Notes under the pieces: generated by a model
Databases searched by the model: none
The model's input: the letters and a program-made list of their open reading frames with translations, nothing else
What the model was told of the DNA's origin: nothing
Program-made: the position numbers and the translations under genes
Part shown: positions 9,138-48,318 of the stretch, one piece after another
How the letters are laid out: the number at the start of each line of letters is the position of its first letter
Position numbering within the stretch: the first letter of the stretch is position 1
Assembly: GCF_000242635.2 (NCBI RefSeq)
Contig: NC_017770.1
Span: forward strand, 2,368,669-2,432,668
DNA length: 64,000 bases
Source of the DNA: Solitalea canadensis DSM 3403
GTDB lineage: Bacteria; Bacteroidota; Bacteroidia; Sphingobacteriales; Sphingobacteriaceae
Direction of reading: 5' to 3'

Positions 9138-9217
9138 TTTGTCATGCTGAGGTACGAAGCATCTGTTTCTTTTAGGCACCCATAACTAACAGATCCTTCC
9201 TTCGTCAGGATGACAAG
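9138..9217. repeat. REP-like imperfect palindrome (GTCATnCTGA element)
   Basis: Left arm 9138-9167 begins TTTGTCATGCTGAGG; right arm 9188-9217 is its imperfect complement (24 of 30 positions pair) with a 20-base loop. The words GTCATGCTGA and GTCATCCTGACGAAGGAAGGATCTG recur in intergenic regions of many Bacteroidota genomes as far as I recall. No transposase of the TnpREP type is in the window. Confidence 0.65.
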
Positions 9218-9287
9218 ATTATGTTAGTTTTTTGAGGGTCAATCCTTAAAGGACATTGCCGATAACCCTTGTAGTTACTTGTTACCG

Positions 9288-9707: not shown

Positions 9708-9758
9708 TTCTCCAATTAGTTATTAACTAACATCTGACAATTGACTTATTTTCAATTA

Positions 9759-9842
9759 CCCAGTGTCTCAAATCTCATATCCCATTTCTCACATCTAAAT
9801 TACACCCAGCGTCTCAAATCCCACATCTCACATCTAAAAATC
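9759..9842. repeat. Tandem pair of the GAGATTTGAGA-type repeat abutting the desaturase stop codon
   Basis: Two direct copies with a period of about 47 bases: 9759-9800 (CCCAGTGTCTCAAATCTCAT onward) and 9806-9842 (CCCAGCGTCTCAAATCCCAC onward), both ending CACATCTAAA. The second runs into the minus-strand stop codon at 9841. Orientation matches the copy at 1174-1210. Confidence 0.8.
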
Positions 9843-10944: not shown

Positions 10945-11034
10945 GAATATTGAGATTGTAATTTAAATTCAAAAAGCAGCATTTATTATTAACGCAATCT
11001 TTCAGAAATCTTATTCCAACTTCAACGCCTCACA

Positions 11035-12390: not shown

Positions 12391-12441
12391 AGATTTTGAT
12401 AGGTTCTTTTAACTTTGTGTTAATTATTACAGTTAAAAGTT

Positions 12442-13212: not shown

Positions 13213-13237
13213 TTGCGGCTGCTTACAATTAACGTTT

Positions 13238-14134
13238 ATGAAGAGATTAGGATTATTATTTATGTCGGTTTTTGGCGTTTTGTCGATTGCCAAAGCAACA
13301 ACTATTGATTCATTGGGAATTAGTGAATACAAAGGTAAAGCGGTAATTCTTCACCTTGTTGAATCAAAGGAGAACTACTATTCCATCAGTCGTAAATATC
13401 ATGTAAGTCCTTCTGAATTGATGGAATTTAATGATAATGCTCCAATCAGAATCGGTGATACATTAAAGATCAACAAAAAAGGGTTGACATTAAAAAAAGG
13501 AGCTACAGCTGTGGCTTCAGGAAAAACCATTGAACATACAGTTGCGACAGGAGAAACATTATTTGCCATTTCAAGAAAATATGGAGTTTCTGTTGAAGAT
13601 ATCATTAATTTAAACGGTTTAACAGATAATAGCGTTAAAATTGGTCAAAAATTAAAGATCAACTCGGGAGGAAAATCAGCAGCTACCGTTGTAGTTACTC
13701 CGCCTGCTAAACCAACTGAGACTGTTGTAAAAGTAGAACCGAAACAAGAAGAAGTAAAGGTTAAACCAACAACAACACCCGTAAAAACTGAACAGAAGCA
13801 GGAAGTGGAAACGGATGAAAATGCAGCAGTTGTAGATACATCTGTACCGGCAAAAGTAGGTCGTGAAATTCATGAAAGCGGTATGGCCACCTGGATCAGT
13901 GATAATGATTTAAACCAAGCTAAAAGCGTTGCATTGCACCGTACAGCTCCAATTGGAACAATCGTTAAAATAACCAATCCTATGACTAACAAAAGTGTAT
14001 ATGTGAAGGTGGTTGGTAATTTCCCGGAAAGTGCAGATACCAAGAATGTTTTGATTGTAATATCAAAATCGGCGGCGAACTTATTAGGTGTACGTGATCA
14101 GAAATTCAGAATCGATCTGGCGTACGCAATGTAA
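13238..14134 (+). CDS. Secreted LysM protein with a degenerate RlpA-like barrel domain
   Basis: A 298-aa exported protein with signal peptide (1-20, ending AKA); the ATG at 13238 is preferred over an upstream in-frame codon inside the previous gene. Two LysM peptidoglycan-binding domains follow (about 36-79 and 99-143, the second with HTVATGETLFAISRKYGVS). Next is a Pro/Glu/Lys-rich linker (150-205) and a C-terminal double-psi beta-barrel like that of RlpA (213-298: ESGMATW, TAPIGTIVKITNP). H234 aligns with the RlpA active-site His, but the usual NDRGPF segment with the catalytic Asp is replaced by VVGNFPES, so lytic transglycosylase activity is doubtful. Probably a periplasmic wall-binding protein. 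uridine kinase follows 9 bases later. Confidence 0.85.
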   Translation: MKRLGLLFMSVFGVLSIAKATTIDSLGISEYKGKAVILHLVESKENYYSISRKYHVSPSELMEFNDNAPIRIGDTLKINKKGLTLKKGATAVASGKTIEHTVATGETLFAISRKYGVSVEDIINLNGLTDNSVKIGQKLKINSGGKSAATVVVTPPAKPTETVVKVEPKQEEVKVKPTTTPVKTEQKQEVETDENAAVVDTSVPAKVGREIHESGMATWISDNDLNQAKSVALHRTAPIGTIVKITNPMTNKSVYVKVVGNFPESADTKNVLIVISKSAANLLGVRDQKFRIDLAYAM

Positions 14135-14143
14135 TCATTAAGG

Positions 14144-14776
14144 ATGAGTAACAGACCTTTTGTAATTGGAGTTGCCGGGGGGAGCGGATCTGGTAAAACC
14201 TATTTTTTGCGCTCGCTGCTTAACCATTTTCAACCTGAACAAATTTGTATTGTTTCGCAGGATGATTACTATATTCCTGTTGGAGACTTAAGTCCTGAGG
14301 AGAATAAACTTTACAACTTTGATCTTCCACGAACAATTGACAACGATAAGTTTCATCTGGATGTCGAAACGCTTATAAAAGGAGAATCGGTTTTCAAAAA
14401 GGAGTATACGTTCAACAACCCAAATGCGATTCCCAAAATGCTGGAATGTAAACCTGCTCCAATTTTAGTTGTTGAAGGTTTATTTATTTTCCACTTTGAA
14501 GCGATTAATAAGCTCCTTGATATGAGGATATTTATTGATGCACACGAAGAACTGGCACTTAGACGTCGCCTTAAACGCGATCAGGAAGAACGAGGTTATT
14601 CTCACGAGGATATCATGTATAAATGGGAACATCACGTAGTTCCTGCCTATAACGAGTTCTTATTGCCACATAAATTAAACGCCGACATTGTTGTTGATAA
14701 CAATGAAGTACAGGATATTGATTTTATTGGTTTTAAACATGCTGTAGAAGAACGATTGATCAAAAAGAATATGTAA
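14144..14776 (+). CDS. udk: Uridine kinase
   Basis: A 210-aa P-loop kinase of the pyrimidine salvage pathway that phosphorylates uridine (and cytidine). The Walker A motif is GVAGGSGSGKT at residues 9-19. The substrate-binding region follows with QDDYYIPVGDLSPEE and NFDLPRTID, and the lid-type RRLKRDQEERG Arg cluster is typical of uridine/phosphoribulokinase family members. Length matches bacterial Udk. It follows the LysM gene closely and ends before a strong terminator. Confidence 0.9.
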   Translation: MSNRPFVIGVAGGSGSGKTYFLRSLLNHFQPEQICIVSQDDYYIPVGDLSPEENKLYNFDLPRTIDNDKFHLDVETLIKGESVFKKEYTFNNPNAIPKMLECKPAPILVVEGLFIFHFEAINKLLDMRIFIDAHEELALRRRLKRDQEERGYSHEDIMYKWEHHVVPAYNEFLLPHKLNADIVVDNNEVQDIDFIGFKHAVEERLIKKNM

Positions 14777-14793
14777 TCTTCTAAAAGATACAA

Positions 14794-14831
14794 AACAAGA
14801 GCGGCTTTATTAATATAGAGCCGCTTTTGTT
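14794..14831 (+). terminator. Intrinsic terminator after uridine kinase
   Basis: 13-bp stem with one wobble pair, AACAAGAGCGGCT (14794-14806) / AGCCGCTTTTGTT (14819-14831). Confidence 0.75.
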
Positions 14832-14901
14832 AGTTTATTACAGGATGGATCAATCCCAAAAAGGAGAATAACCTTAGTTGTTATAGTCTAAAATATAAAA
14901 A

Positions 14902-14926
14902 AAGCTGACCCGCATTGGATCAGCTT
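14902..14926 (-). terminator. Terminator downstream of the CoA-transferase genes
   Basis: Stem AAGCTGACCC / GGATCAGCTT with one mismatch; on the minus strand it is followed by a T-rich tract (complement of the A run before 14902). Confidence 0.65.
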
Positions 14927-14973
14927 CATTATAATAAGGGCTAACTGAATAGCCCGAACACCAGTCTTTCTTA

Positions 14974-15630
14974 TTATAAAACCATTTCGGGAACTTCACC
15001 CTCAACAATTAATTTACCTGCTGTTGAGTTTTTAATATATTCAACAGAAATACCGGGAGCACGCTCTAATAATTTAAAACCTCCTTCAGGAAGTACGTCA
15101 AAAACGCCCAGCTCTGTAACTATCTTTTTTACACAACGCGTGCCGGTTAAAGGTAAAGTACAAGCAGGTAATAACTTAGATTCTCCGGCTTTATTAACAT
15201 GCTGCATAGCTACTATGATGTTCTTCGCAGAAGCTACCAAGTCCATCGCCCCTCCCATTCCCTTTACCATCTTACCTGGAATTTTCCAGTTAGCAATATC
15301 TCCATTTTCAGATACCTCCATTGCCCCTAAAATAGTCAGGTTTACTTTCCCAGCGCGAATCATTCCAAAACTTAGCGCCGAATCAAAAATTGATGTGCCC
15401 GGTAATGTGGTGATAGTTTGCTTGCCCGCATTGATTAAATCAGGATCCTCTTCTCCTTCATAAGGAAAAGGGCCCATACCTAATAATCCGTTTTCAGATT
15501 GCAGGGTAACAGAAATTCCTTCAGGTATATAATTGGCCACTAAAGTAGGAATACCAATTCCGAGGTTTACATAATAACCATCCTTTAGTTCTCTTGCTAT
15601 TCGTTTAGCTATGCCGTTTTTATCTAACAT
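14974..15630 (-). CDS. scoB: 3-oxoacid CoA-transferase, subunit B
   Basis: A 218-aa beta subunit of the SCOT-type CoA-transferase, which moves CoA between succinyl-CoA and acetoacetate or similar 3-oxoacids. The catalytic Glu lies in SENG (E46 in LQSENGLLGMGPFP). NLGIGIPTLVANY at the start and KMVKGMGGAMDLV in the middle are family hallmarks. The partner subunit A gene is 99 bases upstream on the same strand; the gap contains short repeats rather than the usual tight junction. Substrate specificity (acetoacetate versus butyrate/acetate) is not certain. Confidence 0.93.
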   Translation of the reverse strand: MLDKNGIAKRIARELKDGYYVNLGIGIPTLVANYIPEGISVTLQSENGLLGMGPFPYEGEEDPDLINAGKQTITTLPGTSIFDSALSFGMIRAGKVNLTILGAMEVSENGDIANWKIPGKMVKGMGGAMDLVASAKNIIVAMQHVNKAGESKLLPACTLPLTGTRCVKKIVTELGVFDVLPEGGFKLLERAPGISVEYIKNSTAGKLIVEGEVPEMVL

Positions 15631-35958: not shown

Positions 35959-37674
35959 ATGACATGGTTTGTTACTACGCTGCAGCAATACCCCGAACTT
36001 TCGGTATTCCTTGCGCTCGCCCTCGGCTTTTTTATTGGAAACATTAAAATCGGCAGTTTTAGTTTGGGCTCCGTTACAGGGGTACTGTTGATGGGAGTTT
36101 TAATCGGACAATTAAAGATTGATGTTTCTCCTACTGTAAAATCTGTTTTTTTTCTCATGTTCTTATTTGCAGTTGGCTACAGTGTTGGCCCTCAATTTTT
36201 CAGGGGATTAAAAAAAGATGGTTTACCGCAAGTCTATTTTGCAGTCATTATTTGTATCCTGTGTTTACTTGTTCCTTATGCTATTGCTAAATTTTTGAAT
36301 TACGATGTTGGAACTGCCTCCGGCTTCCTTGCAGGAGCAAATACAATTTCGGCAGTAATTGGTGTCGCTTCCGATTCAATAAATCAGTTAAATATATCTG
36401 CTGCTGAAAAAGCAGCGTTAACTAATAAAATTCCCATTGCATATGCTGTTACGTACATTTTCGGAACAGCCGGAACAGCTTGGTTTTTGGCCTCTGTTGG
36501 ACCAAAATTATTGGGAGGAACTGAAAAAGTGATTCAGGAATGTAAAGAACTGGAAGCAAAGTTAGGACAATCAGTTTCTGACAATGATCCCAGCCTGCGT
36601 TCTGCTTTAAACAGAGTAATTTTTAGGGCATTCACAGTAGAAAATGAATGGTTCAAAAACAGCAAAACCGTAAATGAAACAGAAGAGTACCTGGAAAGTT
36701 TTGGGAATAGGGTATTCATTGAACGTATTAAATCAAACGGTAAGATCATTGACGCTACTCCTGATCTTAAAATCTCATTTGGAGATTCAATTGTTGCAGG
36801 TGGTCAGCGTTCTTTTTTCCTTACCGATCAGGATCATGTTGGAAAAGAAATAAATGATCCTGAGTTACTAAATTTCACCATTGAAACAGTAAGTGTATTA
36901 ATTACAAATAAAGAGGTTATTGGTAAAACATTAGCTGAAATCATCAAAAACGACGAGCTTATCAGTAAAAACTTCCATGGTATTGGTGTTAATCGAGTTA
37001 CACGTGCGGGTGTTGAAATGCCATTAAGTGGCGGGTTAAAAATTGAACGTGGAGATCAGATTGATATTACAGGGCTCAAACATGAAGTGGACAGATCAGC
37101 AAATTTCCTCGGTTATGCCGATCGTCCCACTACTTCAACCGACATAATGTTTGTTGGTGTTGGAGTTTTGCTTGGTGGATTATTCGGTGCTTTGACTGTC
37201 CATATTGGTCATGTGCCCTTCAGTTTAAGTACAAGTGGTGGTGCTTTAATTGCCGGATTAATATTCGGTTGGCTACGATCACAGCACCCAACATTCGGTC
37301 GCATCCCCGCTCCTGCATTATGGATCATGAATAATCTGGGTTTAAATACTTTCATTGCAGTTGTAGGTATAAGCGCCGGACCAGGCTTTGTTGAAGGATT
37401 TAAGGAGTTAGGATTAAGCCTGTTTATTGCCGGGATTTTCGCTAGTCTAATTCCTATGTTTCTGGGGTTGCTCATTGGTCGCTATATCTTCAAATTTCAT
37501 CCGGCCATTAACTTGGGTGGCTGTGCGGGAGCCAGAACCACCACTGCGGCATTAGGCGCTATTCAGGATGCTGTTAAAAGCAATACCCCTTCCCTTTCCT
37601 ATACAGTAACCTATGCAGTCGGAAATACTTTATTGATTATCTGGGGTGTGGTAATTGTACTATTGTTTTCATAA
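35959..37674 (+). CDS. aspT: Aspartate:alanine antiporter (AspT/AAEx family)
   Basis: A 571-aa membrane protein, exchanging extracellular aspartate for intracellular alanine. N-terminal bundle of about five to six membrane segments (10-180, with FIGNIKIGSFSLGSVTGVLL), a central soluble part (200-390) with two TrkA_C/RCK-like domains (DATPDLKISFGDSIVAGGQ, RGDQIDITGLKHEV), and a C-terminal bundle (395-571) ending AGARTTTAALGAIQDAVKSN, the AspT signature. It is 24 bases upstream of aspD, the matching decarboxylase, so the two form an operon. Together they generate proton motive force through aspartate decarboxylation, as known in Tetragenococcus and Lactobacillus. Confidence 0.94.
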   Translation: MTWFVTTLQQYPELSVFLALALGFFIGNIKIGSFSLGSVTGVLLMGVLIGQLKIDVSPTVKSVFFLMFLFAVGYSVGPQFFRGLKKDGLPQVYFAVIICILCLLVPYAIAKFLNYDVGTASGFLAGANTISAVIGVASDSINQLNISAAEKAALTNKIPIAYAVTYIFGTAGTAWFLASVGPKLLGGTEKVIQECKELEAKLGQSVSDNDPSLRSALNRVIFRAFTVENEWFKNSKTVNETEEYLESFGNRVFIERIKSNGKIIDATPDLKISFGDSIVAGGQRSFFLTDQDHVGKEINDPELLNFTIETVSVLITNKEVIGKTLAEIIKNDELISKNFHGIGVNRVTRAGVEMPLSGGLKIERGDQIDITGLKHEVDRSANFLGYADRPTTSTDIMFVGVGVLLGGLFGALTVHIGHVPFSLSTSGGALIAGLIFGWLRSQHPTFGRIPAPALWIMNNLGLNTFIAVVGISAGPGFVEGFKELGLSLFIAGIFASLIPMFLGLLIGRYIFKFHPAINLGGCAGARTTTAALGAIQDAVKSNTPSLSYTVTYAVGNTLLIIWGVVIVLLFS

Positions 37675-37698
37675 AATCGCTAACTAATAAATCTAAAT

Positions 37699-39342
37699 AT
37701 GAGCTCTAAAATTGAAAAAATTAAGACATCGAGGGCTAAGCAAGAAGTTCTTCAACAACTTAGTCCTTTTGAGTTAAAAGACAACCTGATCGCCTTAGCA
37801 AGCGCAAAAGATAAAAAAGAAACCGATGTAATGCTGAATGCCGGGCGCGGAAACCCAAATTGGATAGCGACCACTCCGCGCGAAGCTTTTTTTGCATTAG
37901 GGCAGTTTGGCTTAGCAGAATGCCGAAGAGCAATGGACTTTCCGGGATTAGCAGGTATTCCGGAACTTAAAGGGATTGCTAAACGATTGGAAGAATTCAT
38001 CAAAAACAATAAAAATACCCAAGGCATTGGGCTATTGGAGGCAACTTACCAGTATGGATTAAAGAATCACCAATTTGATCCTGATTCATGGGTACATGAA
38101 ATGGCTGGATCAATCATTGGTGATCAATACCCTGTTCCTGATCGTATGCTTGATCATTTTGAGCCAATTGTTCATGATTATATCGTACAAGAAATGTGCG
38201 ACAATAAGCCACCAAAAGGCAAATACGACATATTTGCAGTAGAAGGCGGAACAGCGGCCATGTGCTATATCTTTGATTCATTGCAAAATAATGGCTTATT
38301 GAATAAGGGAGATACGATTGCCCTAATGGTTCCAGCATTTACACCATACCTTGAAATTCCGGAGTTAGAACGTTTCAGTTTTAATGTGATTAAAATTGAA
38401 GCCGATGAAATGAGTGCTGATAATAGGCACACCTGGCAATATTCAAATGAACAAATTGAGAAGCTGTCTGATCGTTCTATAAAAGCTTTATTCGTCACCA
38501 ATCCAAGTAACCCTCCGTCTGTTGCTATTAGTCAGGATAGCATAAAACGCTTGATTAAGATCGTCAAAAACATGAATCCAAATCTGATGATCATTACTGA
38601 TGATGTATACGGAACATTTGTTCCCGGGTTCCGGTCTTTAATGGCTGAATTACCGGAAAATACAATTGGCGTTTATTCATTTTCCAAATATTTTGGCTGT
38701 ACGGGTTGGCGTTTAGGCGTTGTGGTAATCCATGAAAATAATGTATTTGATAAAATGCTTTCAGCATTACCTCAAAAGCGTATGGATGAGCTAAACAGAC
38801 GTTATTCGACACTTACCCTACATCCCGAAAGAATTAAATTTATTGACCGGATGGTGGCTGATAGTCGCTTGGTGGCATTAAATCATACAGCAGGTTTATC
38901 ACTGCCGCAACAAACGCAAATGATGCTTTTTTCGGCGTCCTGCTTACTCGACAAAGAAAATAAATACAAACAACTAACCAGGGATATTGTCCTGAAACGT
39001 CTGAACTTACTATGGGATAACCTAGGTATTCCATTATTTAAAAACCCAGATCGTGCAGGCTATTACTCTGAAATCGATTTATTAGGCTGGGCACAGATGA
39101 AATACGGAGATGGTTTAGGCGATTATCTTCAAAAGAACTTTGAGCCTACCGATATCTTATTCCGTTTAGCCGAAAAATCTTCAATTGTATTGTTAAATGG
39201 CGGTGGATTTGACGGACCAGAATGGTCGATCAGGGTTTCGCTTGCCAATTTAAATGACGATGATTATGTAAAAATTGGAAAAAGCTTAGCCGAAATTTTT
39301 GATACTTATGCTGAAGCCTGGAAAGCTGAAAAGAAAAAATAA
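37699..39342 (+). CDS. aspD: Aspartate 4-decarboxylase, bifunctional with aspartate aminotransferase
   Basis: A 547-aa PLP enzyme that converts L-aspartate to L-alanine and CO2, with a side aminotransferase activity. It has fold type I signatures: EGGTAAMCYIF near residue 182, TNPSNPPSVAIS at 267, TDDVYGTF at 300 and the PLP Lys K330 in SFSKYFGCTGWRLGVV. WSIRVSLANL near the end holds the Arg that binds the substrate carboxylate. Length and order match AspD rather than ordinary aminotransferases (about 400 aa). It follows aspT directly. Terminators lie after it at 39353 and 39399. Confidence 0.95.
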   Translation: MSSKIEKIKTSRAKQEVLQQLSPFELKDNLIALASAKDKKETDVMLNAGRGNPNWIATTPREAFFALGQFGLAECRRAMDFPGLAGIPELKGIAKRLEEFIKNNKNTQGIGLLEATYQYGLKNHQFDPDSWVHEMAGSIIGDQYPVPDRMLDHFEPIVHDYIVQEMCDNKPPKGKYDIFAVEGGTAAMCYIFDSLQNNGLLNKGDTIALMVPAFTPYLEIPELERFSFNVIKIEADEMSADNRHTWQYSNEQIEKLSDRSIKALFVTNPSNPPSVAISQDSIKRLIKIVKNMNPNLMIITDDVYGTFVPGFRSLMAELPENTIGVYSFSKYFGCTGWRLGVVVIHENNVFDKMLSALPQKRMDELNRRYSTLTLHPERIKFIDRMVADSRLVALNHTAGLSLPQQTQMMLFSASCLLDKENKYKQLTRDIVLKRLNLLWDNLGIPLFKNPDRAGYYSEIDLLGWAQMKYGDGLGDYLQKNFEPTDILFRLAEKSSIVLLNGGGFDGPEWSIRVSLANLNDDDYVKIGKSLAEIFDTYAEAWKAEKKK

Positions 39343-39352
39343 TTTAATAACC

Positions 39353-39422
39353 AAAAGGCCAGTGTAGAGTACTGGCCTTTTACGGTAAAAACAAAAAAGA
39401 CCAATCTGTTGGTCGATTGGTC
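39353..39422. terminator. Two back-to-back terminators between aspD and the VWA gene
   Basis: First stem AAAAGGCCAGT (39353-39363) / ACTGGCCTTTT (39371-39381) ends the plus-strand aspTD operon. Second stem GACCAATC (39399-39406) / GATTGGTC (39415-39422), followed on the minus strand by T-rich sequence, ends the minus-strand five-gene operon. Confidence 0.8.
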
Positions 39423-39554
39423 CTTCTTAAAACTAAAATAATGATCTGTAGAAAAGCTACAAGTGTTATGTTTTATTGATTCAAAAGTATCGAACCCGAA
39501 AATTAATCACTAATCGCAAAAGACATTATTTTGTTCAGTTTGTATCAAATTACA

Positions 39555-40703
39555 TCAATCATTTTTAATTCCGGCAGTTCTGATATCATGGGAAGAAGCC
39601 CATAATCCAATATCCTGTTTACTTAATGCCGCAGCCATCAGATCTGGAAACAAGTTAGGAGTGCATGCAAAAACGGGAATTCCTAATGAGGCGAAATACG
39701 CAGCATTTCTGCTGCAATACGACGGAGCACCGTCATCATTCAAGGCTAATAAAGTAATCACCTGAACTCCGCTACTAACAAGATTTAAAGCTGTTTTCCT
39801 CATTTCTGCTTCATCTCCTCCTTCATACAGGTCGGTAATTAATACACAAACCGTATCCAAAGGCCTCGTAATAATTTGCTGGCAATATGTTAAAGCTTTA
39901 TTAATATCGGTCCCACCACCCAACTGCACACCAAAGAGCAGATCGACCGGGTCTTGCAGCTCTTCGGTAAGGTCTGCAACAGCAGTATCAAATACAACCA
40001 TTTGGGTTCGAATAGCTGGAATTGACGCCATCACCGCACCAAAAATCCCTGAATAAACTACTGAAGTTCCCATTGATCCGCTTTGATCAAGGCAAAGAAC
40101 AATGTCTTTCATTGCCTTTCTCTTTTTTCCATACCCAATCCTTACTTCAGGAATGATCGTTTTATATTCTTCCTGATAGTGTTTCAGGTTCTTTCTTATG
40201 GTTGTATTCCAGTCGATTTCATTATGACGTGGGCGGCGGTTCTTTCTTGCCTTGTTCAAACTACCCGAAACTGCCTGTTGCATTGGAGATGCTAATTTTT
40301 GCATCAATTCATCCACAACCTTCTTTACTACCTGCCGGGCAGTATCTTTAGTCTTTTCCGGAATTACTCTTCCCAATGTCATTAGGTTAGCCACCAGGTG
40401 AACATCCGGAACCACAGCTTCAAGCATTTCAGGTTCTGTAAGCATTGATGTCAGGTTAAGTCGCTTTAACGCATCTTGCTGCATCACTTTCACCACTGTA
40501 TTGGGAAAATAGGTTCTGATATCACCCAACCACCTTGTTACATTAGGCGATGAGCTTCCTAATCCTCCTTTGCGATCTCCGTTATACAAAGCTTCAAGTG
40601 TTTTATCAATACTAACCTCTCTCAATGAAAGCTCTACAGGCAACTCATCTTTCGTTTCATTCCCTAAAATCAATCGCCATCGTTTTAAACTTTGTTCACT
40701 CAT
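39555..40703 (-). CDS. yehP: VWA domain protein of the YehP type
   Basis: A 382-aa protein, last gene of the five-gene operon. The N-terminal half (1-195) is helical and of unknown fold, with a basic segment KARKNRRPRH (151-160). The VWA domain starts at about 198 and has a complete MIDAS: D206-x-S208-x-S210 in CLDQSGSMG, T265 in GGGTD, and a later DLYEGGDE (around 295) that supplies the third acidic residue. VWA MIDAS domains bind a metal-coordinated ligand protein; in MoxR-VWA systems they direct the ATPase to its target. It corresponds to E. coli YehP by family and context. It begins one base after the stop of the upstream gene. Confidence 0.9.
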   Translation of the reverse strand: MSEQSLKRWRLILGNETKDELPVELSLREVSIDKTLEALYNGDRKGGLGSSSPNVTRWLGDIRTYFPNTVVKVMQQDALKRLNLTSMLTEPEMLEAVVPDVHLVANLMTLGRVIPEKTKDTARQVVKKVVDELMQKLASPMQQAVSGSLNKARKNRRPRHNEIDWNTTIRKNLKHYQEEYKTIIPEVRIGYGKKRKAMKDIVLCLDQSGSMGTSVVYSGIFGAVMASIPAIRTQMVVFDTAVADLTEELQDPVDLLFGVQLGGGTDINKALTYCQQIITRPLDTVCVLITDLYEGGDEAEMRKTALNLVSSGVQVITLLALNDDGAPSYCSRNAAYFASLGIPVFACTPNLFPDLMAAALSKQDIGLWASSHDIRTAGIKND

Positions 40704-40704
40704 A

Positions 40705-42891
40705 CTAATTAATACCCATTAATTGATTTAAAACAGGAACTATCTTTATAGCTCTTTCGGTATCGAAATCTCGGTTAATTACAGGTGTTACATGACCTGA
40801 AATGCCCGATTTTGCCTTTATGGCAATTTTTTGTTTTTCAGGAGATGTATATGTTGCAAATGTCCGCCTTAGTAAAGGAATCAATTGCTGAAAAATTTCT
40901 TCGTCCAAATCTCCAACCCAATTATTTATAATACCCCAAATGACATCATCCAATAACAATGTAGTTACATTTCCACTTAAAAAGCCCTGCAGCCACATCG
41001 CCGAATAAGCAGGATCATTCGCTATCGATAAGGCCTTATTAAACTCAGCAGCTATTATTTGGCTGTCTGTCGCTTTCCAATCAAATAACAACTTACAACT
41101 TAGGCCGTGCAATAAAGCAATTGAGTTGTTGCTATTAATAATTCTGAACAATGTTTGTATCCATTCCGCCTGCAGCTCATCCTCCAACAACATCATGGAT
41201 TGATTCATTTCGTTAATGAGCATATCAAATTGTTCAGCCGTATCTTCATCAATTCCCGAACAAGCAGAAGGAAGCCCTATGCAAATTCTGCTAAAAAGCG
41301 TATCTGTTATTAACTGAATGATATCCAGATCTGTTTTTCGAACATTCCCATAACGTTTAATCTTTACCAACGGAATAAAAGCCTTTATTAATGAATGAAC
41401 ATCAGTTGTGTTAGCCGCCAGTAAATCCATTCGATTCATTACGCTGAAAATACCTTCGTGAAGGTCTGCCGGTATCGCAAGTTCCAATAATAGTGCTACA
41501 TCCGAAAGCTCATTAGTTTCAGAGGCTTTGTAAGAAAGATAGTTATTGGCAGCCAGTTCAAGCGTATTTCCCCAAACTGCTTTTTCCAATAGTTGTATGG
41601 TATACTCAGGTTCCCATTTAATCACCCATTCCTCTTTAAAAGTTCCTTTCCCTGAGGCATACCCTTGTCTTCCCCATTTTACGCCAATAACATTTAAACG
41701 ATGAAGCAGAATACTTTTAGCCAGATCGTTTTCCTCGCGAAGGTCAAATGTAATCGACTTACTCTCATTGAGTTGTTTTAAACGAAGTTTTCGGATAGCA
41801 ATTTCAAGGTCTTTTTGTAATGGAACCTGAGGAACATCTTCAGGAACTTCTCCCATTTCCAGCCCGACAATAAGTTGATCCCACACCAATCGCATCAGCA
41901 CTTCTTCTCCGTTGCACATCACTGATTGAACAGCTTCATTCATCTCTTTTAAACCGGGCCGATGCAAGTTTCTCATCGCAGCCAGTGACTGAGCCAGTCG
42001 GACCGACTCAATTACATGAGCAGAAGATACATCCATGCGGTTATTTCTGAATAAACGGGCTACATGAGTTAACCATATCACTCCGTTATCGTCGGGATTA
42101 ACCCAAAGGTGCTGGTACCAGCCTGGTGAATTTACCCCAGCTCCGTAACCACTCTCAAATGACAAACGATCATTCGTCCAGGGAATCCATGTCGTATCTA
42201 CTTTAACTTTATTTAAGTTCTTTAATAACTGGTCGTCCTCTTTCTGTGCAGGCATTGTTTGCAATGCAGGAACATGCCATGCACCACAAATAACCACTAT
42301 ACGGGAAAAACCTTCTTTTTGAGCTAAACGAATGTTTTTTCGCATAAAGGCTTCACGAATCATTTCCTTTTCACTTTTATCCGGAAAAGTTTCGCGCAAC
42401 GAATGCATTAAATGTGATATAGCTTCAAAAGCCTGAAGTGGCTGATGATTAATTTCAAACTGATGTTCCCACCATTCTTCAGCATCTTCAAATCCAGCAA
42501 TTTCAGCCAAATGCGCAATTGGCTGTTTACCAATGTTAGTCGAATCCGAATTTTCTTCTGCTTCTTTTTCAAAAGCCAGTTTATTTACCAATGGCATATC
42601 AATAAACCTGACCGGAATATTATTATAGATTCCATAATAGATGGCTTGCCACTCTGGAGAATAAACTGCAAAGGGATAGAAAACAGCATTTTGCGGATTA
42701 TCAGGAACATAGCCCAATAAAGCAACCGGCGGTTTCATTTCCTTTCTGATCACCCATTGCAACATTTCCTCTCCTTCGGGAGGACCTTCTACCAGGATAA
42801 TATCAGGTTTTATCTGTTCAATAGATTCTTTAACATGCCTCGCCGAACCTGGTCCGTGATGGCGTATTCCTAAGAAATGTAAATCAGGCAT
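40705..42891 (-). CDS. yehM: DUF5682 protein (YehM type) with TIKI/TraB-like GxxH motifs
   Basis: A 728-aa soluble protein. Residues 1-210 look like a TIKI/TraB-fold putative metal-dependent hydrolase: GIRHHGPGSARHV with G8-x-x-H11, ILVEGPPEGEEM with E35, RFIDMP with D98, and VVICGAWHVPAL with G203-x-x-H206. Two GxxH motifs and an acidic residue are the known signature of TIKI/TraB/PrgY proteins. The remaining 500 residues are helical and lack known motifs; they include EEWVIKWEPEYTIQLLEKAV and a possible C-terminal interaction domain. Assignment to DUF5682 is family recognition; the hydrolase idea is inference. The gene lies between the MoxR ATPase (5 bases upstream) and the VWA protein (1 base downstream). 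Confidence 0.85.
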   Translation of the reverse strand: MPDLHFLGIRHHGPGSARHVKESIEQIKPDIILVEGPPEGEEMLQWVIRKEMKPPVALLGYVPDNPQNAVFYPFAVYSPEWQAIYYGIYNNIPVRFIDMPLVNKLAFEKEAEENSDSTNIGKQPIAHLAEIAGFEDAEEWWEHQFEINHQPLQAFEAISHLMHSLRETFPDKSEKEMIREAFMRKNIRLAQKEGFSRIVVICGAWHVPALQTMPAQKEDDQLLKNLNKVKVDTTWIPWTNDRLSFESGYGAGVNSPGWYQHLWVNPDDNGVIWLTHVARLFRNNRMDVSSAHVIESVRLAQSLAAMRNLHRPGLKEMNEAVQSVMCNGEEVLMRLVWDQLIVGLEMGEVPEDVPQVPLQKDLEIAIRKLRLKQLNESKSITFDLREENDLAKSILLHRLNVIGVKWGRQGYASGKGTFKEEWVIKWEPEYTIQLLEKAVWGNTLELAANNYLSYKASETNELSDVALLLELAIPADLHEGIFSVMNRMDLLAANTTDVHSLIKAFIPLVKIKRYGNVRKTDLDIIQLITDTLFSRICIGLPSACSGIDEDTAEQFDMLINEMNQSMMLLEDELQAEWIQTLFRIINSNNSIALLHGLSCKLLFDWKATDSQIIAAEFNKALSIANDPAYSAMWLQGFLSGNVTTLLLDDVIWGIINNWVGDLDEEIFQQLIPLLRRTFATYTSPEKQKIAIKAKSGISGHVTPVINRDFDTERAIKIVPVLNQLMGIN

Positions 42892-42896
42892 TCTTG

Positions 42897-43976
42897 TTAA
42901 ACATGATCCCTACATGCGCGATAAATGTCTTTCCATCCATCACGTTGCTTCACCACTGTTTCAAGATATTCCTGCCAAACAATTTTATCCTGAACAGGAT
43001 CTTTAATAACCGCACCAATTACCCCCGAAGCAATATCATCTGCTTTTAAACTTCCGTCACCGAAATGATAAGCAAGTGACAATCCACTATTCATTACAGA
43101 AATTGCCTCAGCCGTACTTAGTGTACCTGAAGGGGATTTAAGTTTGGCCTTTCCATCTATGGAAACCCCTGCTCTAAGCTCACGAAAGATGGTTACAATA
43201 CGTTGTATTTCTTCCAGAATTGGTCTTTCAATAGGAAGTTCCATCGCTTTACTAAAGCCCGAAACACGCTGTTGCACAATTGCAATTTCTTCGTCCATTG
43301 AAGAAGGAACCGGAAGAATAACGGTATTAAAACGGCGTTTTAATGCACTTGATAACTCATTAACACCTTTATCCCTGTTATTAGCTGTTGCGATCAGGTT
43401 AAAGCCTTTTACAGCCTGTACTTCCGTATTTAACTCAGGTATGGGCAATGTTTTTTCTGAAAGAATGGTAATTAACGTATCCTGCACATCGGAGCTGATA
43501 CGGGTCAACTCCTCTACCCTCACGATTTTACCATCTTTCATTGCCCTCATAACAGGTGTTTCGACAATTGCATCGATTACCGGACCGGCAGAAAGTAACC
43601 GCGCATAATTCCACCCATACCGAACAGCCTCTTCTCCTGTACCTGCTGTTCCTTGTACAACCATTGTTGAATCGCCCGCAATTGCTGCAGCAATATGCTC
43701 CGATACCCATGATTTCGCTGTACCAGGCAAGCCATATAACAACAGGGCCCTGTCGGTAGTCAGTGTAGCTACCGCGATTTCCATCAGTCGGCGACTTCCT
43801 ATATACTTTGGTGTGATTTCAAATCCGTTACTCAACTTACCGCCTACCAAGTACGTTACAACAGCCTGAGGTGATAGTTGCCAGTTTTGAGGTTTAACGT
43901 TTTTATCTTGTTTTATAAGTTCTTCTAATTCTGATGCAAACTGCTCTTCAGCGTGCTGACGAAGTATTGATGACAT
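42897..43976 (-). CDS. yehL: MoxR-type AAA+ ATPase, YehL subfamily
   Basis: A 359-aa AAA+ ATPase. Walker A is GLPGTAKS (82-89). The Walker B region is GKIVRVEELTRI (149-160), with V-E-E in place of the usual hhhDE; Sensor 1 lies in TANNRDKG (198-205) and the Arg finger in ALKRRFN (211-217). The helical lid follows to residue 359. MoxR ATPases act as hexameric chaperones that assemble or activate metal enzymes and other complexes together with VWA proteins. This member belongs with DUF5682, SWIM and VWA neighbours as in the YehL branch described for E. coli. Nine bases separate it from the upstream DUF5691 gene. Confidence 0.92.
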   Translation of the reverse strand: MSSILRQHAEEQFASELEELIKQDKNVKPQNWQLSPQAVVTYLVGGKLSNGFEITPKYIGSRRLMEIAVATLTTDRALLLYGLPGTAKSWVSEHIAAAIAGDSTMVVQGTAGTGEEAVRYGWNYARLLSAGPVIDAIVETPVMRAMKDGKIVRVEELTRISSDVQDTLITILSEKTLPIPELNTEVQAVKGFNLIATANNRDKGVNELSSALKRRFNTVILPVPSSMDEEIAIVQQRVSGFSKAMELPIERPILEEIQRIVTIFRELRAGVSIDGKAKLKSPSGTLSTAEAISVMNSGLSLAYHFGDGSLKADDIASGVIGAVIKDPVQDKIVWQEYLETVVKQRDGWKDIYRACRDHV

Positions 43977-43985
43977 AAATAGTTG

Positions 43986-45473
43986 TTAATTATTACTTAA
44001 ATAATCTTTTATTTTCTCTCTGATTTCAATGATACGAAGCATTGCTGCCGACTGGGTTGAAAGGTATCTGTCATGTGCCTGTTCATTTCCAGTATTGTAA
44101 TATCGTTCCAATGTACCACAAACCGACTGAGGTAAATGCATTGCAAGCAAAGCATAACCATTCTGATAAACAGTGTAAGGTTCTTTTTTTAGCTTTAAAA
44201 GAAGTTTTTCTGCGAATGCAGCTGGTATCAGTTCGTTTTCATCTAAATCACATACCAACTGGATAACATAGCTTAATTCGTTTTCAAGCAGCTGCTCCAG
44301 GTATTTATAACGATCAGTTACATTCATCAAATGAATTAAGCTTTTTCCGTCTACCTCTTTTTGATCAATTAACTTATCGAGCCAGCTGGTATATCGATAA
44401 GTATTTACAGCTTGAATCAATGACGGAGTGAAAAGCTTTTTTTGTGGATGATCCAAAAATAGCTCTAATGCTTCTCCGACAGTTGTACCCAACAAACTGG
44501 CAAGATCTTCCGGATGAACATATTGAATCAACTCGGAAACCCAAAAATCACTATCATCAACTCCTTTCTGGGAGCTGATCTTTCCGATTCCTGACTCAAA
44601 TAATTCCTTATCAGGAGTAAATTCTTTACTAATCACCAACGATTTCTTTTTAACAATGATAAAAGCACGTTGTTCCTGTACAGACAAAACCTTTTTAAGA
44701 AATTCGATATAAGAAAGGTTAAGAGCAGAACCTCTTAACGATCTTAATAAATTGTAAACCGTTTGTTTAATCACTTTACTTCGGTCAGCAATAAACCCTG
44801 TCAGAAAAGACTCATCGTCTAGGCTTAAACCAATGGCAAATATTTCAAGGAACTCCTGACGATTGGAAGCAGTTTCTTCTGCAATTGTTTTTTCCAGTAA
44901 TGGAATTACAGCTCGAAGATCTTGTTCACGAAGTTGTTTAAGGTAACTTTTACGCTGCACAAAGCTCCCTGTTTCCCATATATCAGTACCCTGAGGATTG
45001 AATAATTGGCTCCATGATTCACTCAATCCGGTTAGCCATTTACCTGTTTCGCCACAAACTTCAACTAAACTTAGAGCGCTTTCTTTATTTTTATTGACAA
45101 ATGCTTTATCAAGCAGTTCCGGTACAAATTCTGGAGTTACCACCTTTCCTTGCTCCCAGCATAAATTGATAAAATAGCTAAATAAAAGCTCTTCCTTGGT
45201 TTGTAGTAATTGATTAAGTAATGAGGTTGCCTTTATTGAAATATATTCTTTCGTTTCACAAGGGCAAACTGTACCTACATCTGTTACCTTAACCGGATCG
45301 GTTCCTAACTCATCAAACAGTAGGGCACCGACAGCTAACTTTAGAAAATAATCCTCTTTATCTTCTTTTGTCGCTTGCAGGGAACTATCCCATTCCGTCA
45401 ATGCAGAGGGAGCATTGGGAATATACTTATCAGTCCCTAAAAGAGCCGACTTAATTATATCTTCTGAATGCAT
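43986..45473 (-). CDS. DUF5691-like protein
   Basis: A 495-aa soluble protein that starts MHSEDIIKSALLGTDKYIPN. It is all-helical, Leu-rich, with segments such as RAVIPLLEKTIAEETASNRQ and VIKQTVYNLLRSLRGSALNL that look like HEAT-type repeats, as in scaffold proteins. I see no catalytic motif. DUF5691 members are typically encoded next to SWIM zinc-finger and YehL genes, and its start overlaps the SWIM gene stop by one base (TAATG), so the two are translationally coupled. A role as adaptor between SWIM protein and ATPase is inference. Confidence 0.8.
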   Translation of the reverse strand: MHSEDIIKSALLGTDKYIPNAPSALTEWDSSLQATKEDKEDYFLKLAVGALLFDELGTDPVKVTDVGTVCPCETKEYISIKATSLLNQLLQTKEELLFSYFINLCWEQGKVVTPEFVPELLDKAFVNKNKESALSLVEVCGETGKWLTGLSESWSQLFNPQGTDIWETGSFVQRKSYLKQLREQDLRAVIPLLEKTIAEETASNRQEFLEIFAIGLSLDDESFLTGFIADRSKVIKQTVYNLLRSLRGSALNLSYIEFLKKVLSVQEQRAFIIVKKKSLVISKEFTPDKELFESGIGKISSQKGVDDSDFWVSELIQYVHPEDLASLLGTTVGEALELFLDHPQKKLFTPSLIQAVNTYRYTSWLDKLIDQKEVDGKSLIHLMNVTDRYKYLEQLLENELSYVIQLVCDLDENELIPAAFAEKLLLKLKKEPYTVYQNGYALLAMHLPQSVCGTLERYYNTGNEQAHDRYLSTQSAAMLRIIEIREKIKDYLSNN

Positions 45474-46780
45474 TACACTATTGAGTAAAAGTTAGCTTTT
45501 GTCCACATGGACAGGATCGTTAATTTCTCGTTTTCATAAACAGCAAATGCCGAAAATGGCAATCCTTGGCTAATTGCTAAGGCTTTCCAACAAGTGTTTT
45601 CCGTATTATTCAACAAGTATGATAAATTATCAGCATCCATTAGCAACCATTTTTTATTTGTCAGGTTAATCTTAACATTGGACAAAAGACACGGAACTTT
45701 TTCAGCAAAAGGTAATACCGATAACGTTTGGGCAACCAGCTCAGTTATCGACTTAAAACTTCCAAAACCTGTTAATGAAGTAAAAGGTGCAATAGCTGTT
45801 TGATCCTTTATAATGGCCCTAAGTGGCAATACAGAAGGATAAAAAGCTAACTCCGCATTTACAATAGCACCGGAATAAAGGGTATGCTGGGCAGTTTGTC
45901 CACCTCCATAAAAATTAAGCAGCAAAGCAAAACACGCTGATTCTTGTCCATACATCCAGATTCTTTCTGTGGTTACCTTATCATCCTCTTCTGTTGTAAT
46001 GGATAATACCACCCAGTTATCGTTAACCGAATTACCTGCCAACACCTCTTCCTTGGAGGTTGTCCACCCTGTAAGCGATCTGACATCCTGCGCTAATAAT
46101 GGAGGCAAATTATCAAGTTGCCTATACCCTTCTGTTAAAAGATAGATTTTGCTTAGTTTTTTAAGAAATACTTTTTCCCATCCTTCATGATAGAAATCAA
46201 CTGACGACAGCCCTTTTGCCATGGTGGCTAAACCGGATGCTTGTGCATCAACCATACGTGCAGCAATGGTAGTTGTTAAATTGTAAGCTTGTTGAGGTAC
46301 ATTCACAATTCCGGTACGCACAGTGTCTTTAAGCCAAGTTCTCAGTTCTTCAATACCGTTCTTTACCTTTTTTTCTCTTGCTTCAACACGTTTCTTCTGA
46401 GCAGCTTCATCTACCGGTTTTTCTTCTTTTTCTTTCTTAACCTCGGCCTTTACTTCACGTTTACCTATCCATTCTTCAACCAGTTCTGCTAACGTAGTTT
46501 CTACTTGAAAATCGCCGGGATTCTTCGCATATAAAAGGCCAAGTGCAATACCATGCTTACAAGGAAATTTACGGCTTGGGCACGAACATTTAAAAGCCAG
46601 GTTAGCCCGATCGATCATGGTCTTATAAGGTTCTTTCCCACTACCCTGACAATATCCCCATATGGCTTTTTCATGTACATGACGTTTCACCCATTTAGCT
46701 ACTGTGGCTAGTTGTTGTCCGGCTTTTAAAGATGATGTATCAGGAGCTAATTGTATAACTTGTTCTTCAGTAATATTCAC
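45473..46780 (-). CDS. SWIM zinc-finger protein (YehQ-like), first gene of the operon
   Basis: A 435-aa protein with an N-terminal SWIM zinc finger: C65-x-C67-x6-C74-x-H76 in KCSCPSRKFPCKHGIAL. SWIM domains bind nucleic acid or protein partners. A Lys/Glu-rich segment (about 110-145, with EVKKEKEEKPVDE and KKRVEAREKKVK) follows as a charged helix, then a beta-rich region (about 220-435). Similar SWIM proteins (YehQ in E. coli) are found with YehL/YehM/YehP. It is the first gene of the operon, so its promoter should lie in the 191 bases upstream; a terminator at 46903 separates it from the preceding gene. Confidence 0.86.
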   Translation of the reverse strand: MNITEEQVIQLAPDTSSLKAGQQLATVAKWVKRHVHEKAIWGYCQGSGKEPYKTMIDRANLAFKCSCPSRKFPCKHGIALGLLYAKNPGDFQVETTLAELVEEWIGKREVKAEVKKEKEEKPVDEAAQKKRVEAREKKVKNGIEELRTWLKDTVRTGIVNVPQQAYNLTTTIAARMVDAQASGLATMAKGLSSVDFYHEGWEKVFLKKLSKIYLLTEGYRQLDNLPPLLAQDVRSLTGWTTSKEEVLAGNSVNDNWVVLSITTEEDDKVTTERIWMYGQESACFALLLNFYGGGQTAQHTLYSGAIVNAELAFYPSVLPLRAIIKDQTAIAPFTSLTGFGSFKSITELVAQTLSVLPFAEKVPCLLSNVKINLTNKKWLLMDADNLSYLLNNTENTCWKALAISQGLPFSAFAVYENEKLTILSMWTKANFYSIV

Positions 46781-46902: not shown

Positions 46903-46931
46903 AAAACGGTTACCTTTCGGATAACCGTTTT
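46903..46931 (-). terminator. Terminator after the GIN-domain gene at 46972
   Basis: 10-bp stem AAAACGGTTA (46903-46912) / TAACCGTTTT (46922-46931); on the minus strand it is followed by T-rich sequence. Confidence 0.8.
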
Positions 46932-46971: not shown

Positions 46972-47658
46972 CTAATAAAGGCTTGAAATGGAAACTTCTT
47001 GTCCGGCCAAACTCATTTTAGCAGGTGTTCCATTTTTATAGTTGAACTGATCTTTAACAACTGCCTTAAAATCGCAGATGCCATTTAGTTCAGCATTGTA
47101 ATTATTTACAATGAAAGATGAGCCGTCAATACAAGCCGATTGATCTGTTTTAATATTGTGCACTTCAGCAGAGCCCTTTACCATTAATTTTGAGCCAAGA
47201 GTTACCTGAGAATACAGTTCGTAGACATCAATAGTTAAATTAGCGGAACTTTCCTGATCGAGTGTTATGCTCAATTCTATTGCATTAAATGTGCTTAATG
47301 ACTCAATTTGAACATTTTTGCAAGCTTCAATTGCTTGCAAGTCTTTCGCAAAAACCACAATCTGAGGAGTTCCTGCAAAGCGACTCATTGTTGATTTAAT
47401 GCTTAATACACCATCCTTAACTTCAACTTTAATTTGCTTAGAAGTAAGATGTTCTTTAGAAAGCATCAGGAGTTGGTCATTATCACCATTACTGATAATT
47501 AATCTGACATTTCCTTCCACATTAACTTTAGTAAAATGTTGCAATGAACGGGTAAGTTTTGGTTTCTTAACCTGATCGGCTGCCTGAGCATTACCAACCC
47601 ACAAAATGCTTGTTAAAGCAACCCATGCAACAGCGATTAGTTTAGAGAGCGTTTTCAT
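46972..47658 (-). CDS. Secreted GIN-domain (DUF2807-like) protein
   Basis: A 228-aa exported protein with signal peptide (1-26, ending AQA). The mature part is a beta-helix-like GIN domain: FTKVNVEGNVRLIISNGDND at its start, SKEHLTSKQIKVEVKDGVLS, QIVVFAKDLQAIEACKNVQI and LMVKGSAEVHNIKTD later. Unlike the copy at 35040 it lacks the lipobox and the SGAG-rich strands. The related short protein at 47929 is encoded upstream on the same strand. Function unknown; GIN domains are proposed adhesin or envelope modules. Confidence 0.82.
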   Translation of the reverse strand: MKTLSKLIAVAWVALTSILWVGNAQAADQVKKPKLTRSLQHFTKVNVEGNVRLIISNGDNDQLLMLSKEHLTSKQIKVEVKDGVLSIKSTMSRFAGTPQIVVFAKDLQAIEACKNVQIESLSTFNAIELSITLDQESSANLTIDVYELYSQVTLGSKLMVKGSAEVHNIKTDQSACIDGSSFIVNNYNAELNGICDFKAVVKDQFNYKNGTPAKMSLAGQEVSISSLY

Positions 47659-47876
47659 CGTTGTGTTTATTTAGTGTTAGTTATTTGTTTTTCTGACGCT
47701 ATAAGTTTGATGAATGTTGCACTTTGAAAGTGTTTTTTTTTAAAATAAAAAAATCAATCAACTGTATCTCATTCACTTAGTCAAATTTCACAATAAAACA
47801 ACTTGCTAATCAAGCGTATATTTACCTGAATATGCTCGTTAAATTACAAGTACATGTACCATGATTATAAAACAAC

Positions 47877-47908
47877 AAGGCCGTTCCGGTTAAAATCGGA
47901 ACGGCCTT
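47877..47908 (-). terminator. Terminator after the short GIN-like gene
   Basis: Perfect 12-bp GC-rich stem AAGGCCGTTCCG / CGGAACGGCCTT with an 8-base loop; minus-strand T content downstream is modest. Confidence 0.7.
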
Positions 47909-47928
47909 GCTATAGATTTCAGCAGAAT

Positions 47929-48318
47929 TTATTCTTTTACAACTTTAACATCGCCGTAGGTGCTGATATTATGGATGTCTTTTAAGGTAATCCAAAGTGT
48001 TATTTTTTTCTTAACAGCATCTGTTGTATAAATATTCAATTCGTTTTCAGACACAAATGACTGAACAGCGTTTGCCATTTCTTCTGGTGCTTCAATGATA
48101 ATTTTTTGCTCATTACCTTGTGAAAGCATTACTTTAAAGTTTCCACTTACTTTTACAGTTTCAAAAGCGGCAACCTGCATTTCTTTACGAACTGGAGTAG
48201 TTTCTTTTTTGGCTTTTTTAGTTTTGCTATCGTCATTAACTGTGGTAAATGACATTGTGCTTATCATAAGTAATGCTGCTAATGCAAATGCACCGATACT
48301 TTTAATAGTTGTTTTCAT
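47929..48318 (-). CDS. Short secreted protein with a half-length GIN-like domain
   Basis: A 129-aa exported protein; signal peptide MKTTIKSIGAFALAALLMIS to STMSFTTV. A Lys-rich linker precedes AAFETVKVSGNFKVMLSQGN, EQKIIIEAPEEMANAVQSFV and LNIYTTDAVKKKITLWITLK, which correspond to only the first part of the GIN domain seen in the neighbour at 46972. It ends STYGDVKVVKE, before the later strands. It could be a natural short form or a truncated relative, but the stop is not in a degraded region. No known function. Confidence 0.72.
   Translation of the reverse strand: MKTTIKSIGAFALAALLMISTMSFTTVNDDSKTKKAKKETTPVRKEMQVAAFETVKVSGNFKVMLSQGNEQKIIIEAPEEMANAVQSFVSENELNIYTTDAVKKKITLWITLKDIHNISTYGDVKVVKE

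Follow-up and report, generated by a model that had tools for sequence, protein, structure and literature searches.

The 64,000-nucleotide stretch of the Solitalea canadensis DSM 3403 genome analysed here (NC_017770.1, positions 2,368,669 to 2,432,668; hereafter the window), part of a complete 5.2 Mb genome, carries a minus-strand operon whose five genes encode, in order, a SWIM zinc-finger protein, a DUF5691 protein, a MoxR-type AAA+ ATPase, a DUF5682 protein and a CoxE-type VWA protein. We found that this unit is genuine, that it belongs to a named, uncharacterised gene set (ddrTUVWX of Deinococcus), and that the five families are inherited all-or-none in Bacteroidota, including carriers in which the genes are scattered; this pattern of inheritance is what is new here. 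The five genes probably encode one protein machine, for which a part in the nucleic-acid damage response is the likeliest role. The reading that we favour, tentatively, is a dedicated AAA+ remodelling machine that would serve such a response; beyond the co-inheritance, the fusions, the motifs and the published induction, its mechanism is one that we infer.

Joint inheritance of the five families

The five open reading frames (ORFs; Table 1) are joined with gaps of -1, 9, 5 and 1 bases, and a preliminary description of this DNA, made from the sequence alone, had the genes, the strand and the gaps exactly right. It had also proposed that the five genes form a functional unit, which is borne out by co-inheritance across genomes: the five families occur together, and in the same order, in Actinomycetota, Hyphomicrobiales, Deinococcus and Bacteroidota, which answers its call for a co-occurrence check in distant genomes. 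The order in Rhizobium is SWIM, DUF5691, AAA, DUF5682 and VWA, and in Methylosinus the first four genes stand in order and the VWA gene is fragmented. Hymenobacter has a SWIM-DUF5691 fusion followed by the AAA gene, an extra gene, DUF5682 and VWA, and Streptomyces (L038) has a DUF5682-VWA fusion; each of these two fusions joins two neighbouring genes, one pair before and the other after the ATPase gene.

Among 395 sampled Bacteroidota genomes, the window's own included, eight have DUF5682, and the same eight carry the AAA family and the VWA family, each at an E value of 1e-30 or better. DUF5691 was matched in these eight and in G110, a genome without a SWIM protein; seven of the matches lie above the family cut-off of 27 bits, while those of G252 (23.6) and G110 (20.4) lie below it. 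The G252 copy of DUF5691 adjoins the AAA and DUF5682 genes. The SWIM family was found in 9/9 carriers tested (seven of the eight, plus G061 and G099, which are carriers known only by DUF5682) and in 0/7 non-carriers tested; in G252 the SWIM match covers model positions 136-435 only, the finger part being missing or elsewhere. The chance that two random sets of 8/395 coincide is 7e-17, a figure that treats the genomes as independent, which they are not; three of the carriers belong to one family. In three of the eight carriers the five genes are scattered: G133 has them at five places spread over four contigs, G268 on three contigs with the DUF5682 and VWA genes close together, and G252 also on three, three of the genes being together. 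Since the genes co-occur in these genomes even when scattered, linkage is not the whole reason for their joint inheritance. Taken together, the same order across phyla and the co-occurrence in the same 8/395 genomes show that the set is more than a product of chance.

A second form of the set, with a DUF4132 protein and without DUF5691, is found in E. coli, Allorhizobium and Iodobacter. Detectable homology of DUF5691 and DUF4132 was not supported (hhalign E 0.83), and the two merely fill the same slot. The slot holds a 637-residue protein in Fusobacterium (L035, 8941-10854), whose Pfam matches are all at E 0.047 or worse, and this protein is possibly a third scaffold type. When plasmids were searched with DUF5691 by tblastn, Nonomuraea was the sole match, which suggests that the family is diverging fast.

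Named relatives of the operon in Deinococcus and E. coli

The operon had been called the best candidate for an undescribed system in this DNA, a claim that has to be withdrawn because the same gene set is already named ddrTUVWX in Deinococcus. As far as its published description was accessible, ddrTUVWX of D. deserti likewise consists of five genes, of which the first encodes a SWIM protein, the third a MoxR-like protein and the last a CoxE-like VWA protein, and the window has the same composition: SWIM, conserved protein, MoxR-like, conserved protein and CoxE-like VWA. According to the accessible text of PMC5552922, the SWIM gene of D. deserti is induced more than 10-fold by radiation in an IrrE-dependent manner, and a DdrO-type motif lies upstream of each ddrTUVWX homologue analysed. 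The third D. deserti gene is described as MoxR-like, with a suggested chaperone role together with the VWA protein, in the available part of PMC2669436, and ddrTUVWX is grouped with genes of unknown function in that of PMC8072749; no function was found for it among the relevant literature matches listed. In D. taeanensis, an extra 78-residue gene is reported between the third and fourth genes (PMC9510100, partial text). The D. taeanensis locus L033 has the five families of the window in identical order plus one small gene, which fits the gene reported there and is absent from the five-gene layout of the window.

A DdrO matrix built from 34 published sites had its best match in the 26 kb of L033 at 7741-7757, from 36 to 20 bases ahead of the annotated SWIM start at 7777. 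This match scored 22.6 and the next separate site 8.6; as controls, the leave-one-out median of the published sites was 18.3 and the maximum of 60 shuffles was 18.2. In contrast to the Deinococcus copies, the window has no DdrO-type motif upstream of its operon, and it is a homologous gene set, not a demonstrated DdrO target.

The comparison with E. coli yehLMPQ made in the preliminary description holds, with YehL 36%, YehM 23% and YehP 34% identical to the AAA, DUF5682 and VWA proteins of the window, respectively. The E. coli order is yehI, yehL, yehM, yehP, yehQ, with yehK between the first two, and the MoxR AAA+, DUF5682, VWA and SWIM families are common to both sets. However, a DUF4132 protein (YehI) without profile similarity to DUF5691 takes the place of the latter in E. 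coli, yehK separates its gene from yehL, and the SWIM gene is last, whereas it is first in the window. YehQ has a second, CxCx5CxH motif, as read by eye. The yehLMPQ genes are core in E. coli: at least 80% was found in one place in 5162/5426 genomes, and some match in 5301. No functional study turned up for DUF5691 or the yeh gene names among the literature matches listed, the term DUF5682 was not found in the literature search, and a butanol paper mentions yehQ without a function. The accessible text of PMC8533742 places a DUF4132-containing operon of D. radiodurans in the DdrO regulon and says that E. coli MolR had been described as LexA-regulated; our scan of the E. coli yeh locus for CTGTN8ACAG gave no exact LexA box.

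Motifs, models and surroundings of the window operon

The window AAA protein matches AAA_5 at E 1.8e-35 in a Pfam scan that covered the five operon genes and three neighbours, and it is 68% identical to the D. taeanensis protein. The P-loop pattern GxPGTAK[ST] is present in 21/21 rows of an alignment of the window protein with 20 of the 23 recognised AAA ORFs, and in 23/23 recognised AAA ORFs of other loci, and an arginine-finger-like motif, AL[KR]RRF[ND], is present in 21/21 rows. These two motifs and the similarity to YehL place the protein in the YehL subfamily of MoxR AAA+ ATPases, a name used in the accessible text of PMC3893208. The closest PDB chain to the family by sequence is midasin (Rea1; E 5.1e-28); midasin is one giant eukaryotic chain of 4717 to 4910 residues, whereas the ring and the VWA protein of the window are separate small proteins.

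The VWA protein matches VWA_CoxE at E 1.2e-49 and has the DxSxS of a metal ion-dependent adhesion site (MIDAS), as expected of CoxE-like proteins. In an alignment of 18 of the 26 recognised VWA ORFs with the window protein, 18 of the 19 rows have DQSGSM and one has DQSVSM. DQSxSM is present in 23/26 recognised VWA ORFs of other loci, and is missing from the Streptomyces fusion and from two fragments of the broken L034 gene. In L034, a Methylosinus plasmid, the VWA gene is split into three overlapping ORFs (14220-15388), and this copy therefore looks broken. The ATPase, MIDAS and zinc-finger motifs are all intact in the window.

The Pfam SWIM match of the first protein (E 5.8e-4, 19.8 bits) is barely over the 19.6 cut-off, and its CxCx6CxH motif is conserved in 15/15 rows of an alignment of 14 of the 16 recognised SWIM ORFs with the window protein and in 16/16 recognised SWIM ORFs of other loci. 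In a model built from 6 sequences (mean predicted local distance difference test score, pLDDT, 76), residues 1-97 match ZSWIM8 with Z 11.2 and a root-mean-square deviation (rmsd) of 2.3 over 96 residues, and the protein thus combines the CxCxnCxH finger with a predicted SWIM fold. The PDB neighbours of residues ~243-430 of the model (Z about 5 to 7) are mostly OB-fold proteins. Many of them bind single-stranded DNA (SSB, RPA, telomere proteins, HIN domains), and some matches span both OB-like folds (RPA model 9a1v_A, Z 6.7 over 168 residues; TEBP 1kix, Z 5.2 over 162 residues). At the head of the Foldseek list stand eIF5A and baculovirus LEF-3. The model is no more than suggestive of a tandem OB-fold nucleic-acid binder in the C-terminal half of the protein. 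The second protein matches DUF5691 at E 1.8e-60 and HEAT weakly (E 0.048), and DUF5691 would be an alpha-helical scaffold.

The fourth protein matches DUF5682 at E 2.3e-240. In an alignment of 23 of the 29 recognised ORFs with the window protein (left out were L021, L042 and L043, cut by contig ends, the L038 fusion, the E. coli plasmid copy L039, and L045), residues R10, H11, E35, E80, D98, E146, R166, R179, E180 and H206 are invariant in 24/24 rows. Residues 1-218 of its model match a Tetrahymena complex IV chain at Z 10.2, ChaN 2g5g at Z 8.7 (with an rmsd of 4.2 across 149 residues) and HopBA1 at Z 7.8, the C-terminal half resembles helical repeat proteins, and no Foldseek match of the model reached E 0.001 or better. 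By sequence, TraB_PrgY_gumN is sub-threshold in 1/24 members (E 0.014) and TIGR00261 is sub-threshold at E 0.018; this N-terminus may belong to the EreA/ChaN/TraB superfamily. The suggestion that the DUF5682 protein contributes a hydrolase has a modelled hydrolase-like ChaN fold in its favour, and the sequence support stays sub-threshold. No nuclease fold appeared in the VIA-align lists for the SWIM and DUF5682 models, which excludes nothing.

A MoxR-type ATPase with a CoxE-type VWA partner is also seen in CoxD-CoxE and other MoxR-VWA chaperone pairs, from which the window set differs by three further co-inherited partners; no known MoxR-VWA client gene was recognised among the window neighbours in the Pfam scan. 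On the model of CoxD-CoxE and NorQ-NorD, which serve their own neighbour-encoded enzymes, the five genes could encode a maturation chaperone for one enzyme, in which the MoxR and VWA proteins activate or metal-load DUF5682 with SWIM and DUF5691 as accessory adaptors, and the physiological product is the DUF5682 activity. DUF5682 is the sole part besides the ATPase with an enzyme-like (ChaN-like) predicted fold, its invariant residues include His, Glu, Arg and Asp, a DUF5682-VWA fusion exists, and the MoxR-vWA systems in the accessible text of PMC7159879 act on partner enzymes and complexes. However, this arrangement leaves the SWIM/OB-like protein and the joint inheritance of DUF5691 unexplained, and ddrTUVWX belongs to a repair regulon, and we regard it as somewhat unlikely. 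It is very unlikely that the set is a metal or cofactor homeostasis module unrelated to damage, handling heme, as ChaN does, or molybdate, as the old name molR would have it. The predicted ChaN fold, the molR naming of WGR/DUF4132 relatives and a yehM mutation that turned up in copper-evolved E. coli, without a function given in the accessible text (PMC12409786), point that way; in contrast, ddrTUVWX is induced by radiation, and moeA and moeB were not differentially expressed upon DdrO depletion according to the available part of PMC8533742.

The features of the operon are collected in Table 1. The hairpin 5' of the SWIM gene probably ends the preceding transcript; terminator-like sites prove little alone, because the region has nine, where shuffled sequence averaged 5.7. 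On the far side of this hairpin, two consecutive DUF2807 (head GIN domain) genes lie on the same strand at 46972-48318, 5' of the operon. Past the operon end, on the plus strand (35959-39342), a transporter-like membrane gene adjoins an aminotransferase-fold gene (Pfam Aminotran_1_2), a pair that we guess to be an aspartate antiporter and a decarboxylase.

Table 1. Features of the five-gene operon and its borders (positions in the window)
Feature	Position	Strand	Basis
SWIM zinc-finger protein, ddrT-like first gene	45473..46780	-	435 residues, GTG start; ORF, Pfam SWIM
SWIM motif C65-x-C67-x6-C74-x-H76	46553..46588	-	CxCx6CxH conserved
Tandem OB-fold-like region (predicted), SWIM residues 243-430	45491..46054	-	model against PDB, suggestive only
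DUF5691 protein, ddrU-like	43986..45473	-	495 residues; Pfam DUF5691
MoxR-type AAA+ ATPase, YehL kind, ddrV-like	42897..43976	-	359 residues; AAA_5
Walker A GLPGTAKS, residues 82-89	43710..43733	-	GxPGTAK[ST] conserved
DUF5682 protein, ddrW-like, predicted ChaN-like N-terminus and helical solenoid	40705..42891	-	728 residues; Pfam, model
DUF5682 N-terminal domain, residues 1-218	42238..42891	-	invariant residues; model match to ChaN 2g5g, Z 8.7
CoxE-type VWA protein, ddrX-like last gene	39555..40703	-	382 residues; VWA_CoxE
MIDAS first motif DQSGSM, residues 206-211	40071..40088	-	conserved in VWA alignment
Terminator-like hairpin 3' of VWA gene	39392..39429	-	consensus match only
Terminator-like hairpin 5' of SWIM gene	46903..46931	-	consensus match only

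Mobility, defence and a proposed role in the damage response

In a tree of 24 DUF5682 proteins, which came with long-branch warnings, the DUF4132 form (100/100), Fusobacterium together with a gut scaffold (100/100) and all remaining proteins (97/97) form supported groups. The DUF5682 protein of Solitalea agri groups with that of Desertivirga and not with that of the window (100/100), and two other genomes of the same genus gave no DUF5682 match. In S. agri, the aminotransferase-fold and RecQ genes found at the flanks of the window operon are ~300 kb apart, and the operon lies on a different contig from them. The gene set, or what surrounds it, has thus moved. A DUF5682 relative was found in 36/72,556 plasmid records, several of them chromosome-sized. 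A phage or provirus origin was rejected: a scan of viral contigs gave 28 pattern matches and no confirmed relative. The sole match in a phage collection, MT835988 (L040), is filed as a bacteriophage scaffold and carries AAA, DUF5682, VWA, RarA/MgsA and DUF5717 genes; it looks like bacterial chromosome.

The preliminary description had named defence as one option and defence islands as a check. PADLOC has no family that fits the five window proteins, apart from IetA, which the AAA protein matches weakly (best E 2.9e-4); on relatives, PADLOC gave REase_II at E 0.062 and PDC-S62 at E 0.083. When 58/121 neighbour ORFs (Bacteroidota loci only) were compared with 58/121 control ORFs, PADLOC matched 31 families from neighbours and 28 from controls; the controls were hand-picked and lean longer, family counts alone were compared, and the control matches, which look mostly helicase-type, were not located. 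Ten of the 58 neighbours were located, and real restriction and IetS-like genes are among them. The G217 copy has a type I restriction gene nearby (E 4.3e-271; L044, 2621-4900), and ~0.5 kb past the G119 copy comes an IetS-like gene (E 1.3e-40; L048, 12674-15187). IetA and AbiLi matches occur among the same 58 ORFs, without being located, and the copy on the Iodobacter plasmid has restriction-modification genes next to it. The restriction and IetS-like genes by some copies indicate that defence islands are sometimes near, which makes a defence role somewhat more likely without deciding for it.

The closest defence model is that of the MoxR-vWA ternary conflict systems (PMC7159879, accessible part), with which the window set has in common the MoxR and vWA core and a GXXXTAKS-type P-loop. 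The bpMoxR profile matches 21/21 AAA members, the window's below the curated cut-off (24.7 vs 27 bits). In contrast to those systems, the Pfam scan showed neither a variable effector in the window genes nor, in the five genes and three neighbours, a third component of the VMAP, iSTAND, FtsH or beta-propeller type. That the set is an invader-activated defence or conflict system of this kind appears unlikely. Its patchy spread (8/395), a tree and a location at odds with the species, plasmid carriage, a GxxGTAKS P-loop that resembles the FtsH and beta-propeller classes, and the defence genes and matches around some copies would all suit such a system. However, the five window genes and their three scanned neighbours showed no third component or effector of the known classes, PADLOC has no family for the five proteins beyond weak IetA P-loop matches, the neighbour and control counts are alike, viral contigs hold no confirmed relative, and the genes are core in E. 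coli.

A link of the five genes to RNA repair was seen in two loci. In L019, from a Bacteroidetes metagenome-assembled genome (MAG), hen1, SWIM, DUF5691, AAA, DUF5682, VWA and pnkp form a seven-gene run (4120-15350) on one strand with near-zero gaps (Hen1_L E 2.7e-108, PNKP_ligase E 2.5e-179). L046 carries a pnkp homologue and two RlaP-family genes ahead of the five genes, and the gene after VWA there matches an RtcR/PspF-type regulator model (E 1.5e-111); this match is not specific, because one control ORF scores alike on that model. Pnkp1-Rnl-Hen1 is described in the accessible text of PMC4411300 as an RNA repair complex tied to immunity. Pnkp and Hen1 genes were not seen at the other loci searched, and Pnkp was not found in the window's genome. 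It contains, far from the operon, a pair of RNA-repair genes of the RlaP family (G000:C1:4514044-4515166).

The reading of a damage-response machine is supported by the joint inheritance, the two fusions, the induction of ddrTUVWX, the SWIM/OB-like model, the hen1 and pnkp neighbours and the midasin match. Several results weigh against it. Outside Deinococcus, the loci scanned showed no damage-type box at the operon. The radiation/desiccation response motif (RDRM) is absent near the window operon, and the 64 kb hold two 3-mismatch matches elsewhere, where the chance mean is 4.24. In nine alpha-, actino-, beta- and gammaproteobacterial loci (L032, L034, L036, L029, L030, L038, L015, L037 and L039), no exact GTTCN7GTTC, GAACN4GTTC or CTGTN8ACAG stands at the operon start, the exact GTTCN7GTTC matches (one in L032, two in L036) all lying away from the operon, and no shared palindrome was found upstream of the operon in Bacteroidota. 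PNKP_ligase is above cut-off in 1/12 carriers and 1/68 non-carriers (p 0.28, not significant), RlaP is only weakly associated (4/12 carriers vs 5/68 others, p 0.025, one of two tests), and Pnkp, Hen1 and RlaP relatives were found in just two of the loci searched; the two arranged loci and the weak co-occurrence mean that the RNA-repair link rests on physical arrangement and not on co-occurrence. The OB-fold matches of the SWIM model, at Z ~5-7, lie in a range flagged by the comparison tool as possibly mere arrangement, these matches include tRNA synthetases and translation factors, none of the Foldseek matches of the model reaches E 0.001, and their list is led by eIF5A and EF-P (E 0.01). The DUF5682 model, from 7 sequences, has a predicted template modelling score (pTM) of 0.42 and a mean pLDDT of 68.4. 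Finally, a mutant phenotype was not found in the literature.

In a damage-response machine, the SWIM protein, with its finger and OB-like folds, and the DUF5691 scaffold would form an arm that locates DNA or RNA that is exposed or broken, or else proteins attached to it. ATP-driven force would come from the MoxR ring, and the VWA MIDAS would couple the ring to the target. The predicted ChaN-fold domain of DUF5682, tied to VWA, may hydrolyse the target or may be a partner switched by the ring. The job of the machine would be to clear or remodel complexes of protein and nucleic acid near damage, and RNA repair may be one of its partner pathways. A wider proposal, which we consider rather doubtful, is that ddrTUVWX, yehI/yehL-yehM-yehP-yehQ and the Bacteroidota operon are all one cross-phylum nucleic-acid damage machine composed of a SWIM/OB sensor, a scaffold, a MoxR ring, a VWA clutch and a hydrolase. 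Here the sensor on its helical scaffold would hand damaged nucleic acid or bound proteins to a midasin-like ring, with the VWA clutch and a ChaN-fold hydrolase acting alongside, and in some bacteria the machine might have a direct coupling with RNA repair by Pnkp-Hen1.

Strongly induced by radiation in highly resistant bacteria, the gene set has a variant in ~95% of complete E. coli genomes. If it encodes one five-part machine that occurs in two versions, is inherited all-or-none in Bacteroidota and has a SWIM/OB-like part, the question of its role would be testable in E. coli K-12.

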